Origin: Geothrix edaphica
Lineage (GTDB): Bacteria; Acidobacteriota; Holophagae; Holophagales; Holophagaceae
NCBI RefSeq assembly: GCF_030268045.1
Contig: NZ_BSDC01000001.1
Coordinates: 1,178,001-1,242,000, forward strand
DNA: 64,000 nt
Direction: 5' to 3'
The notes below the pieces were generated by a model. The model was not told the DNA's origin, searched no databases, and saw only the letters and a program-made list of their open reading frames with translations. Position numbers and translations under genes: made by a program. How positions within the stretch are numbered: position 1 is the first letter of the stretch; every line of letters begins with the position of its first letter. Shown one piece after another: positions 41,663-44,665 of this stretch.

Positions 41663-42694
41663 CTACTTGACGCCCCAATCGAGGATCACCTTCCCGCTCT
41701 GCCCGCTGCGCATCGCATCGAAGCCCTTCTGGAAGTCGTCGATGCCGAAGCGGTGGGTGATGACGGGGGTGATGTCCAGGCCGCTCTGGACCATGGCGGC
41801 CATCTTGTACCAAGTCTCGAACATCTCGCGTCCGTAGATCCCCTTCAGGATCAACCCTTTGAAGATCACCTGGCTCCAGTCGATGGCGCAGTCGCCGGGG
41901 AGGATGCCCAGCAGGGCCACGCGGCCGCCATGGTGCATGGCCTCGAGCAGGGACTCGAAGGCGTTGCGATTGCCGCTCATCTCCAGGCCCACGTCGAAGC
42001 CCTCGGTCATCCCCAGGTCCTTCATCACCTCTGGGAGGCTCTTCTTCATGGGATTCACGGCCACGGTGGCACCCATCTTCCGGGCCAGATCCAGGCGGTA
42101 CTCGTTCACGTCCGTGATGACGATGTGTCGGGCGCCCACGTGCTTGGCGATGGCCACAGCCATGATGCCGATGGGGCCCGCCCCCGTGATCAGCACGTCC
42201 TCGCCCACCATGTCGAAGCTGAGGGCCGTGTGGGCGGCGTTGCCGTAGGGGTCGAAGATGGAGGCCACCTCGTCCGGGACGTTGTCGGGCACCTTGAAGA
42301 CGTTGAAGGCGGGAATGGACAGGTATTCGGCGAAAGAGCCCGTGCGGTTCACGCCGACGCCCACGGTGTTCCGGCAGAGGTGGCGCTTGCCCGCCCGGCA
42401 GTTCCGGCAGTGGCCGCAGGTGATGTGGCCCTCGCCGCTCACCCGGTCGCCGGGCTTGTAGCCTTCGACCTCGGCGCCCACCCGCTCGATGATGCCGAAG
42501 TACTCGTGGCCCACCACCATGGGCACGGGAATGGTCTTCTGGGCCCAGTCGTCCCAGTTGTAGATGTGCACGTCCGTGCCGCAGATGGCGCTCTTGTGGA
42601 CCCGGATCAGCACATCGTTGGGGCCCACTTCGGGCATGGGCGCCTCGCCCATCCAGATGCCTTCCTCGCGCTTGGTCTTCAACAGGGCTTTCAT
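41663..42694 (-). CDS. tdh: L-threonine 3-dehydrogenase
   Basis: NAD-dependent oxidation of threonine to 2-amino-3-ketobutyrate. 343 residues of the zinc medium-chain dehydrogenase family: [18 protein letters not shown] with the catalytic-zinc Cys near 39, [12 protein letters not shown], structural zinc Cys in [15 protein letters not shown] near 98-112, and Rossmann [13 protein letters not shown] near 171. The product is used by Kbl, whose gene lies 3.9 kb away on the same strand instead of adjacent. GGAGGC precedes the ATG. A -10-like TATAAC in the asnB leader region (antisense) could be its promoter. Confidence 0.95.
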
Positions 42695-42756
42695 GGCGCC
42701 TCCAACCGCACCATTTCATCATCAACATCAAGACTGGCCAACTTAGCCTTCCGCCC

Positions 42757-42784
42757 TTGACGATTCGTGAAGACAACCGATAAG
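42757..42784 (+). promoter_or_regulatory. Promoter of the asnB leader transcript
   Basis: TTGACG (42757-42762, 5/6), 16-bp spacer, GATAAG (42779-42784, 4/6), predicting a start near 42791, 11 nt before the leader-peptide ATG. tdh is divergent, so this is the only obvious driver of asnB. Confidence 0.6.
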
Positions 42785-42801
42785 GTTCTCCCAGGCGTTA
42801 T

Positions 42802-42888
42802 ATGACCAATCCCTCTCTGCGGTCCAACCGCAATATCAATCGGCTCCCTCGCGCGAATCGCGCGTGGGCCGGAGAGGGTCTCACCTAG
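42802..42888 (+). CDS. Asparagine-rich leader peptide of asnB (28 aa)
   Basis: ATG 42802 to TAG 42886-42888, with CAGG upstream. Asn occurs at residues 3, 9, 11, 13 and 19 (core SNRNINRLPRANRA): five of 28, four of them AAT, whereas neighbouring genes use mostly C/G-ending codons. It lies between a promoter and a terminator directly before asparagine synthetase, the position of an attenuator leader ORF. Its codons overlap the sequence that can form the antiterminator (42852-42860). I know of no described homologue. The reading relies on composition and position, not on homology. Confidence 0.7.
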   Translation: MTNPSLRSNRNINRLPRANRAWAGEGLT

Positions 42889-42908
42889 ACACCTGAATTC
42901 CCGGACCA

Positions 42909-42945
42909 CCCCGATTCGCGAAAGCGGATCGGGGTTTTTTCTTTT
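42909..42945 (+). terminator. asnB attenuator: intrinsic terminator abutting the asnB start
   Basis: CCCCGATTCGC - GAAA - GCGGATCGGGG (42909-42934, 11 bp with one G-U pair) followed by TTTTTTCTTTT, ending one base before the asnB ribosome-binding site (GGAG at 42946). No plus-strand gene other than the leader ORF lies upstream, so its purpose must be premature termination of asnB mRNA. Its 5' arm CGATTCGCG (42912-42920) is the exact complement of CGCGAATCG (42852-42860) inside the leader ORF, giving a 9-bp antiterminator that excludes the terminator. Confidence 0.88.
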
Positions 42946-42955
42946 GGAGCAGGCC

Positions 42956-44665
42956 ATGTGCGGCATCCTCACCATCCTCGACATCGATCCCTCCCGCTCG
43001 AACCCGGCGGAGCTCCGGCGGCAGGCCCTGGCCATGGCCCGGAAGATCCGCCACCGGGGCCCAGACTGGAGCGGCATCTACAGCGACGATTGGGCCATCC
43101 TCGTCCACGAGCGCCTCTCCATCGTGGATGTCGAGCACGGCGCCCAGCCCCTCGTCGACACCCTCCAGGGCACGGTGCTGGCGGTCAACGGTGAGATCTA
43201 CAACCACCGGGAGCTGCGCCACGGACTGGGGGAGGCCCACGACTTCCAGACCCTGTCCGACTGCGAGGTGATCCTCTACCTCTACGATGAGCTGGCCCCG
43301 AAGGACTTCCTCAACCGCATGAACGGCATCTTCGCCTTCGTGCTCTACGACCCCAAGCGGGAGACCTACCTCATCGCCCGGGATCCCATCGGCGTCATCC
43401 CCCTCTACCTGGGTTGGGACCGCGAGGACCGCCTCTACGTCGCCTCGGAGATGAAGGCCCTGGTGAGCCACTGCGAACGGATCCGCGAGTTCCCGCCGGG
43501 CCACTTCTTCCTGGGGCACGAAGCCGACAAGGGGTTCCAGCGGTACTACGAGCCGGACTGGGCCGAGCCTGGGTACGTCCCCGACACGCCCTACGATCCC
43601 ACGGCGCTGCGCGCGGCCCTGGAATCAGCCGTGCGGCGGCAGCTCATGTGCGACGTGCCTTATGGCGTCCTGATCTCCGGAGGCGTGGACTCCTCGCTGG
43701 TAGCGGCCATCGCCGCCCAGTACCGGGACGGCCGCGTGGAGGAGGGCGGTACCACGCCCGCCTGGTGGCCCCGGATCCACAGCTTCGCCGTGGGGCTGAA
43801 GGGCGCGCCGGACCTGGCTCCCGCCCGTCTGGTGGCAGACCACATCGGCGCCATCCACCACGAGCTCCACTTCACGGTGCAGGAGGGGCTGGATGCTCTC
43901 TCGGACGTGATCCACCACCTGGAGACCTTCGACATCACGACCATCCGGGCCTCCACGCCCATGTACCTCATGATGCGGAAGATCCGGGCCATGGGCATCA
44001 AGATGGTGCTCTCCGGCGAAGGCGCGGACGAGATCTTCGGCGGCTACCTCTACTTCCACAAGGCCCCGGACGGCCCGGAGCTGCACGCCGAGACGGTGCG
44101 CAAGCTCCAGAAGCTGCACCTCTACGACTGCGCCCGGGCCAATAAGTCCAGCGCGGCCTGGGGCGTGGAAGCCCGGGTGCCCTTTCTCGACCGCGACTTC
44201 CTCGACGTGGCCATGCGGCTGGATCCTGCGGTGAAGCTGCCCCGGAATGCGCCCCGGCCCCGGCCCATCGAGAAATACCCTCTGCGGAAGGCCTTCGAAG
44301 GGCTCATCCCGGAGGAGGTGCTCTGGCGGCAGAAGGAACAGTTCTCAGACGGCGTGGGCTACGCCTGGATCGATGCCCTCAAGGCCACCGCCGAGCGCGA
44401 GATCAGTGACGTCATGTTGCGGGGCGCGGCGGAGCGCTTCCCCGTCAAGACTCCGGAAACCAAGGAGGCCTACTTCTACCGCCAGATGTTCGAGCACCAC
44501 TTCCCCAGCGCCACGGCCGTGAACTGCGTACCCTTCGAGCGCAGCGTAGCCTGCAGCACGGAGACGGCCCTGCGCTGGGACGCCTCGTTCGCGAAGATGG
44601 CCGATCCATCTGGCCGGGCGGTCACTGGCATCCACGACCAGGGGTACCGGGATGAAGTTCGGTGA
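42956..44665 (+). CDS. asnB: Asparagine synthetase B (glutamine-hydrolysing)
   Basis: Makes asparagine from aspartate, glutamine and ATP. 569 residues from ATG 42956, which places the nucleophilic Cys2 at the mature N-terminus (MCGILTILD). Glutaminase half: RHRGPDWSGIY, LSIVDVEHGAQPL, AVNGEIYNHRELR. Synthetase half: ISGGVDSSLVAAI (PP-loop ATP site), SFAVGLKGAPDL, MVLSGEGADEIFGGYLYFHK, and WGVEARVPFLDRDFLDVAM. It is close to the E. coli AsnB type throughout. An in-frame start four codons upstream is excluded because Cys2 must be exposed. Controlled by the leader region described separately. Confidence 0.97.
   Translation: MCGILTILDIDPSRSNPAELRRQALAMARKIRHRGPDWSGIYSDDWAILVHERLSIVDVEHGAQPLVDTLQGTVLAVNGEIYNHRELRHGLGEAHDFQTLSDCEVILYLYDELAPKDFLNRMNGIFAFVLYDPKRETYLIARDPIGVIPLYLGWDREDRLYVASEMKALVSHCERIREFPPGHFFLGHEADKGFQRYYEPDWAEPGYVPDTPYDPTALRAALESAVRRQLMCDVPYGVLISGGVDSSLVAAIAAQYRDGRVEEGGTTPAWWPRIHSFAVGLKGAPDLAPARLVADHIGAIHHELHFTVQEGLDALSDVIHHLETFDITTIRASTPMYLMMRKIRAMGIKMVLSGEGADEIFGGYLYFHKAPDGPELHAETVRKLQKLHLYDCARANKSSAAWGVEARVPFLDRDFLDVAMRLDPAVKLPRNAPRPRPIEKYPLRKAFEGLIPEEVLWRQKEQFSDGVGYAWIDALKATAEREISDVMLRGAAERFPVKTPETKEAYFYRQMFEHHFPSATAVNCVPFERSVACSTETALRWDASFAKMADPSGRAVTGIHDQGYRDEVR

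Follow-up and report, generated by a model that had tools for sequence, protein, structure and literature searches.

A candidate leader-peptide attenuator with asparagine codons ahead of asnB in Geothrix and related genera

The asnB leader and its alternative structures

The window, a stretch of 64,000 nucleotides of the Geothrix edaphica genome, contains a gene for a standard asparagine synthase B, asnB, as judged by both NCBIfam and Pfam, and a threonine dehydrogenase gene divergent from it. The region between the two genes contains a short ORF of 28 codons together with a probable promoter and a terminator (Table 1). The nearest named asnB loci, those of G. fuzhouensis and G. campi, are 93% identical to asnB of the window. 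The short ORF, which has its own probable ribosome-binding site, lies between the terminator and a promoter that matches the consensus weakly. The promoter had been described in the original prediction as directly visible, and a site can indeed be read, with the pattern TTGAC, 16 to 20 nt, TAnnnT found near 37 of 44 distinct related leaders (a raw count with no chance control), but it is weaker than claimed, since the candidate did not pass a strict consensus scan. Only 21 nt separate the end of the terminator stem from the asnB ATG, and an asnB transcription start beyond the terminator, one of the observations that had been named in advance as speaking against attenuation, is therefore implausible.

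Table 1. Features of the asnB locus (window coordinates)
Feature	Position	Strand	Basis
Probable promoter, TTGACG (42757-42762), 18-nt spacer, TAAGGT (42781-42786)	42757..42786	+	Sequence read
AGG, probable ribosome-binding site of the leader ORF	42793..42795	+	Inferred from spacing
Leader peptide ORF, 28 codons and stop, MTNPSLRSNRNINRLPRANRAWAGEGLT	42802..42888	+	Translation; relatives
Control codons Asn9, Asn11, Asn13 (AAC CGC AAT ATC AAT)	42826..42840	+	Last position Asn in 50/50 in-frame rows; stall geometry
Protector hairpin CGCGCG-AAT-CGCGCG, sequesters the antiterminator strand	42850..42864	+	Folding; pairing in relatives
Antiterminator 5' strand, CGCGAATCG (42852-42860) plus GTGGGCCGG (42864-42872)	42852..42872	+	Pairing and duplex tests
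Antiterminator 3' strand, CCGGACCAC (42901-42909) plus CGATTCGCG (42912-42920)	42901..42920	+	Overlaps terminator 5' arm
Intrinsic terminator, 11-bp stem with arms CCCCGATTCGC (42909-42919) and GCGGATCGGGG (42924-42934), GAAA loop, T-run	42909..42940	+	Sequence, terminator scan, pairing in relatives
asnB, glutamine-hydrolysing asparagine synthase B	42956..44665	+	NCBIfam PRK09431.1, 824.5 bits (cut-off 499); Pfam Asn_synthase and GATase_7

The ORF has the coordinates, translation and asparagine positions (residues 3, 9, 11, 13, and 19) that had been reported for it, and its codon cluster matches the amino acid made by the product of the downstream gene. Ten genes of the window, with 3,275 codons in all, have 70 Asn codons (2.1%), which gives a probability of 2.4e-4 for at least five Asn among 27 codons, and the leader was the single case with five Asn among 982 readings of ORFs of 15 to 40 codons in the 64-kb window (nested starts counted). 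The ten genes use AAC 58 times and AAT 12 times; the Asn clusters of 51 related rows (described below) hold 106 AAT and 72 AAC codons, an excess of the rarer codon when kinship among the rows is ignored.

The terminator lies directly ahead of asnB and was the only terminator-like site detected in 42600-43000, where shuffled sequences gave a mean of 0.3. Its 11-bp stem, GAAA loop, T-run and position against the asnB ribosome-binding site were all as described, although "perfect" was slightly too strong a word for a stem with one G-U pair. The 9-bp core of the antiterminator is exact, as claimed, and can be extended, with one mismatch in the extension, to a total of 17 pairs; by complementarity and folding, this helix and the terminator are mutually exclusive. 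The protector hairpin is the element that the original model lacked, and it is the one that would hold the antiterminator strand after the ribosome has passed. The leader folds with a z score of -6.05 (200 shuffles), and the calculated free energies are -26.1 kcal/mol for the 17-pair antiterminator, -22.2 for the terminator alone and -9.3 for the protector hairpin. When the RNA was folded to 42923, and so lacked the 3' arm of the terminator, the best structure was the antiterminator if the 5' part was masked to 42840, 42849, or 42852 and contained the protector if nothing was masked. The terminator remained in the best fold for all five states once the 3' arm was included; the antiterminator can therefore prevail only through the order of formation, and the switch must be kinetic. 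The switch of the trp attenuator likewise has to be kinetic.

The +15/+16 toeprint rule was used to place a stalled ribosome on the leader. With Asn13 in the A site, the computed front edge falls at 42850-42851, one base before the antiterminator strand, a geometry that would free this strand from the protector. With a ribosome stalled at Asn9, however, the protector too would remain free to form, a point against the proposed switch. The best fold also has a small GCGG/CCGC hairpin (42818-42832) that covers the Asn9 codon; its sequence is kept in many relatives, and it is perhaps a pause hairpin.

Control of asparagine genes by Asn T-boxes is known from Firmicutes, and a T-box or another known riboswitch for asparagine could be sought in the same region. 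No Rfam family, T-box and amino-acid leader families included, reached its gathering score anywhere in the window, and the only matches at E<=1 in 42700-42960 were NsiR1 (24.1 bits, gathering score 39) and anti-hemB (17 bits, gathering score 49.5), both of which overlap the terminator. Such an element is thus exceedingly improbable here.

Conservation and distribution of the leader

The upstream DNA of 48 leaders, 44 of them distinct, was compared; 45 of the 48 precede asnB (in one, L153, asnB lacks its first 108 residues), and three (L142, L156, and L157) precede another gene. Together with seven second-phylum leaders (one of them, L236, a repeat of L034), the 44 distinct leaders gave 51 rows that were placed in register by their RAW codons. 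One row, L157, is out of frame in this reading and by eye reads ...RQNNRNNNGLRANG... in its own frame. In the 50 in-frame rows, which span two phyla, a nine-codon stretch contains at least two Asn codons in every row and at least three in 47, and the cluster is kept while the codons that flank it vary. The last control codon is always Asn, AAT in 44 rows and AAC in 6, and some Geothrix leaders carry an extra codon that appears in the alignment as a three-base insertion. These observations bear on the possibility that the terminator is constitutive or answers another signal, such as a protein or small molecule, and that the ORF is incidental. The terminator and hairpin columns are the most invariant of the leader alignment, as such a terminator would allow, and the link to asparagine rests on sequence; however, neither an invariant Asn at the last control codon nor indels that stay in frame within the ORF fit an incidental ORF, and the paralogous leaders described below, where the Tyr and most of the Phe cases have codons that match the pathway of the downstream gene, argue in the same direction. 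We regard this explanation as unlikely.

The C-terminal half of the peptide (PRA[ND]RAWAGEG) is nearly invariant, which might suggest that the ORF encodes a conserved functional microprotein. The invariant codons, however, are those of the protector and antiterminator, and their synonymous positions are nearly fixed (GCG in 50, CGC in 45, and GCG in 49 of 51 rows), as constraint on the RNA predicts; in L157 the peptide is changed in this part, but the pairing is kept (duplex p 0.025). A microprotein is accordingly a very unlikely explanation. Residue 19 of the leader lies in the same region. It had been singled out as odd, because a stall at Asn19, within the antiterminator strand, would have the opposite effect. 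The Asn is there, but the residue is Asp in 28 of the 51 rows and Asn in 21, and its base faces the terminator arm as G-U in 21, A-U in 13, and G-C in 4 of 38 leaders; Asn19 thus looks like a by-product of RNA pairing rather than a control codon, which resolves the difficulty.

The pairings themselves are kept as well. Across 38 distinct leaders, the antiterminator was paired in 96.3% of cells, the protector plus terminator in 98.6% and the protector hairpin in 98.7%, compared to 22.8 to 55.2% for slid controls of the helices. The duplex between the antiterminator strand and the terminator arm was stronger than in dinucleotide shuffles (p<=0.05) for every one of the 44 leaders in the first set, L034 among them, and for all six second-phylum leaders tested. 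Loss of the Asn codons or of the alternative pairing in relatives had been named in advance as refuting attenuation; both are conserved, and so is the terminator. The further question whether these parts co-vary was answered weakly within the Asn set, where covariation is thin: two-sided changes were seen in 3 cells of the antiterminator and 1 cell of the protector plus terminator, the antiterminator slid by -1 gave 6 such cells and a higher covariation score than the true register (0.100 versus 0.062), and the protector-plus-terminator score was reached by 23 of 500 shuffles.

Leaders of this kind are found ahead of asnB both across Geothrix and in further genera of the family. Of the 37 Geothrix genomes, including that of the window, 32 have an asnB orthologue and 31 of these have the leader; in the remaining one (G021), the contig starts inside asnB. 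None of the five genomes that lack an asnB orthologue (G009, G010, G018, G026, and G027) has the leader, with only a weak, proC-type match in G027. Because many of the 31 leaders were part of the search model, the test rests on these five negatives, two of which are genomes only 71 and 78% complete. When 396 genomes of the phylum were scanned with the model R1 at E<=1e-5, using strict filters and 8 scored candidates per genome, the element was found in 24, all of them from the Geothrix family and belonging to 4 genera. One other phylum was scanned, that of a MAG titled Gemmatimonadetes, and the element was present in 7 of its 395 genomes, in each case beside an asnB 82 to 85% identical to that of the window over about 494 residues. 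Identity to the window's asnB is 82 to 94% within Geothrix itself, so transfer between phyla, or misbinning, is the likely source of these copies. Among distant asnB loci (L036, L037, and L039 to L110, with at least 60 nt upstream), eight have a short ORF rich in Asn (with three Asn among eight codons), and none of these eight has a terminator below -12 kcal/mol.

In three family genomes outside Geothrix (G077 and G076 of genus g19 and G094 of genus g24), the leader and terminator precede a gene for a 414- to 417-residue protein that is not AsnB. This gene is present in 4 of 77 family genomes, and the leader was found in 3 of 3 with readable upstream DNA, since the contig of the fourth (G085) ends there. 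The protein matches the NCBIfam model for asparagine synthetase A (NF005054) with E values of 5.5e-26 to 9.6e-32 and scores of 91 to 110 bits, below the curated cut-off of 309, and had no Pfam match at E<=0.001. A profile of the four copies matched the chains 1nnh, an asparaginyl-tRNA synthetase-related peptide (4.8e-17), and 3p8t, an archaeal asparagine synthetase A (7.8e-13), in both cases mainly over residues 49 to 165. The gene is classed as archaeal-type and non-homologous with asnB, and from these matches its product is likely to have asparagine synthetase activity. G094, a genome estimated to be 71% complete with 3% contamination, has both arrangements, a leader before asnB (L146) and a leader before the AsnA-like gene (L157). 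In G092 (L145), the leader is followed by half a terminator and then by what reads by eye as roughly the final twenty codons of the AsnA-like gene, either the remnant of a deletion or an assembly error.

Paralogous leaders with other control codons

Although R1 was built from Asn leaders only, second copies were found with it, and 27 such loci were read. One (L216) was rejected as a chance match inside a coding sequence. Of the genes behind the other 26 leaders, 9 were searched with NCBIfam and the others were named by eye. Fourteen of the loci have Tyr codons in the same scaffold before a class I DAHP synthase gene (a single Tyr codon in four of them), including one in the G. edaphica genome itself (G000:C1:234948-235079, L189 and L218; MTPRFHTYYWFPRADRAWHGEGPA; E 1.1e-12). 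The remaining leaders precede pheA (4), class II DAHP synthase (2), proBA (2), proC (2), an ammonium transporter gene (1) and an unassigned gene for a 579-residue protein (1). Leaders before pheA and class II DAHP synthase have Phe and Tyr codons, and those before the proline genes have three to six Pro codons. The ammonium transporter leader (L203, G093) has four successive Gln codons. The leader before the 579-residue protein, which has no significant Pfam or NCBIfam match, is of the Asn type (L199, G094:C114; KRNTN...RVDRAWAG). A search of the G. edaphica genome with the terminator signature gave three matches, the Asn leader, the Tyr leader and a leader with Phe codons before pheA (G000:C2:201273-201334, L221 and L245). 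A Pro-containing leader before proC (G000:C2:52927-53039, L223) had an E value of 5.25 and is too weak by score. Two other matches in this genome at E<=10 (L220 and L222) appear to be chance, and reverse-strand matches at leader sites are due to near-palindromes.

An antiterminator duplex stronger than in shuffles (p<=0.05) was found in 12 of 14 Tyr leaders, 5 of 7 Phe-type leaders, both proBA leaders and L199 but in none of three proC leaders, the one Gln leader or the G. edaphica pheA leader. The proBA strands pair best with their own terminator arms. For Tyr and Phe strands, the arms of Asn leaders are better partners than those of their own leaders, and the classes are thus only partly specific in their pairing. 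When 14 Tyr, 7 Phe-type and 12 Asn leaders were pooled, the cells with two-sided changes numbered 11 for the protector, 19 for the terminator and 13 for the antiterminator core, compared to at most 6, 2, and 6, respectively, in slid versions; the outer antiterminator helix had 2 such cells versus 3 when slid. In the antiterminator columns of the Asn set, Phe leaders paired in 17 of 51 cells, fewer than in one slid control (30 of 51), and have a different register. Homology of the Asn and Tyr leaders is well supported by these comparisons, and the Phe and Pro leaders are looser relatives that may be homologous, as may the Gln leader. We consider it reasonably likely that in the Geothrix family a single scaffold, consisting of the protector, antiterminator, terminator and a conserved segment that encodes RA[DN]RAW, was copied before different biosynthetic genes and re-addressed by a swap of control codons. 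The codons would be Asn for asnB and the AsnA-like gene and Tyr for DAHP synthase, and they may be Phe for pheA, Pro for proBA and proC, and Gln for the ammonium transporter gene; the Asn version also accompanies asnB in the second phylum.

The window also contains a trp attenuator on the minus strand (7625-7485), with the leader MPLSFPTLRQGLLLGAWWWRTGLDGSLREA and a terminator at 7506-7485, ahead of trpE (7462-6062), which is followed by ORFs that by eye read as trpG, trpD, trpC, and trpF. Its antiterminator duplex was calculated at -28.1 kcal/mol, a value given with no shuffle control.

Proposed mechanism and relation to known attenuators

We propose, with a probability of about 90%, that asnB is controlled by ribosome-mediated transcription attenuation, with its leader as the sensor of charged Asn-tRNA. 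The leader would be transcribed by RNA polymerase as a ribosome translates its short ORF. When Asn-tRNA is sufficient, this ribosome would pass the Asn cluster and the CGCGCG-AAT-CGCGCG hairpin would close behind it; with the protector closed, the terminator would stop transcription before asnB. If Asn-tRNA were scarce, the ribosome would stall with Asn13 in the A site and its front edge at about 42850-42851, blocking the foot of the protector hairpin and leaving the strand from 42852 free, and this strand would form the 17-bp antiterminator with the 5' arm of the terminator before the 3' arm is made, so that asnB is transcribed. The original prediction, in which a ribosome stall at the Asn codons turns on asnB when Asn-tRNA is scarce, is supported by the conserved cluster, the conserved pairings and the fit of the stall geometry. 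Also in its favor are the company of leader and asnB in Geothrix, the leader before the AsnA-like gene, the paralogous leaders and the trp attenuator elsewhere in the window. Points against it are the terminator's dominance in every state folded once complete, the thin covariation, the Asn9 stall and, among the paralogues, the leaders with no duplex beyond shuffles, the Tyr and Phe strands that prefer Asn arms and the Tyr leaders with a single Tyr codon. A match above the curated cut-off for asparaginyl-tRNA synthetase is present in 66 of the 77 genomes of the family, that of the window included, and Asn-tRNA could therefore report free asparagine.

Leader-peptide attenuators are well established for trp, his, leu, thr, and phe in enterobacteria, and the amino-acid leader families of Rfam include the Trp, His, Leu, Thr, and Phe leaders. 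The asnB leader has in common with them a control-codon cluster, a protector, an antiterminator and a terminator, arranged so that a stall would free the antiterminator. It differs in its amino acid, in its occurrence in the Geothrix family and a second phylum, and in an RNA scaffold common to leaders for different amino acids. Asparagine synthetases are known to be controlled by Asn T-boxes and AsnC, which act on the same enzyme with the same physiological logic but through tRNA binding or a protein regulator rather than the translating ribosome proposed for the asnB leader. In Actinobacteria, attenuators of trp, trpS, and leuS and candidate ilvB and cys leaders have been described from the same kind of comparative evidence but in other taxa, and the main text of that report does not mention asparagine or asnB (PMC1262725). 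Leader ORFs likewise stand ahead of amino-acid genes in the uORF motifs uORFC-8-2 (cysS, Rhodobacterales) and uORFC-13-1 (aroF, Acholeplasma), the latter a precedent for the Tyr paralogue; these too are from other taxa, in a report whose main text contains neither asparagine nor asnB (PMC8632094).

The original prediction knew of no leader-peptide attenuator described for asnB, and none for asparagine was found in an open-access library by title and start of abstract either, a scope that leaves most subscription papers and all bioRxiv preprints outside and makes the novelty provisional. The mechanism is classical; the apparent novelty lies in the amino acid and the taxa and in the use of a single scaffold both for Asn and Tyr and ahead of two unrelated asparagine synthetases. 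If the proposal is true, asparagine joins the amino acids for which a ribosome stalled on a leader peptide acts as the sensor. The family would also provide two natural experiments, the same leader ahead of two unrelated asparagine synthetases and a single scaffold whose codons, Asn or Tyr, differ with the gene; codon swaps could then test directly the rule that specificity lies in the codons and the switch in the scaffold. For the cell, control of this kind would mean that more asparagine is probably made only when charged asparagine tRNA is short.
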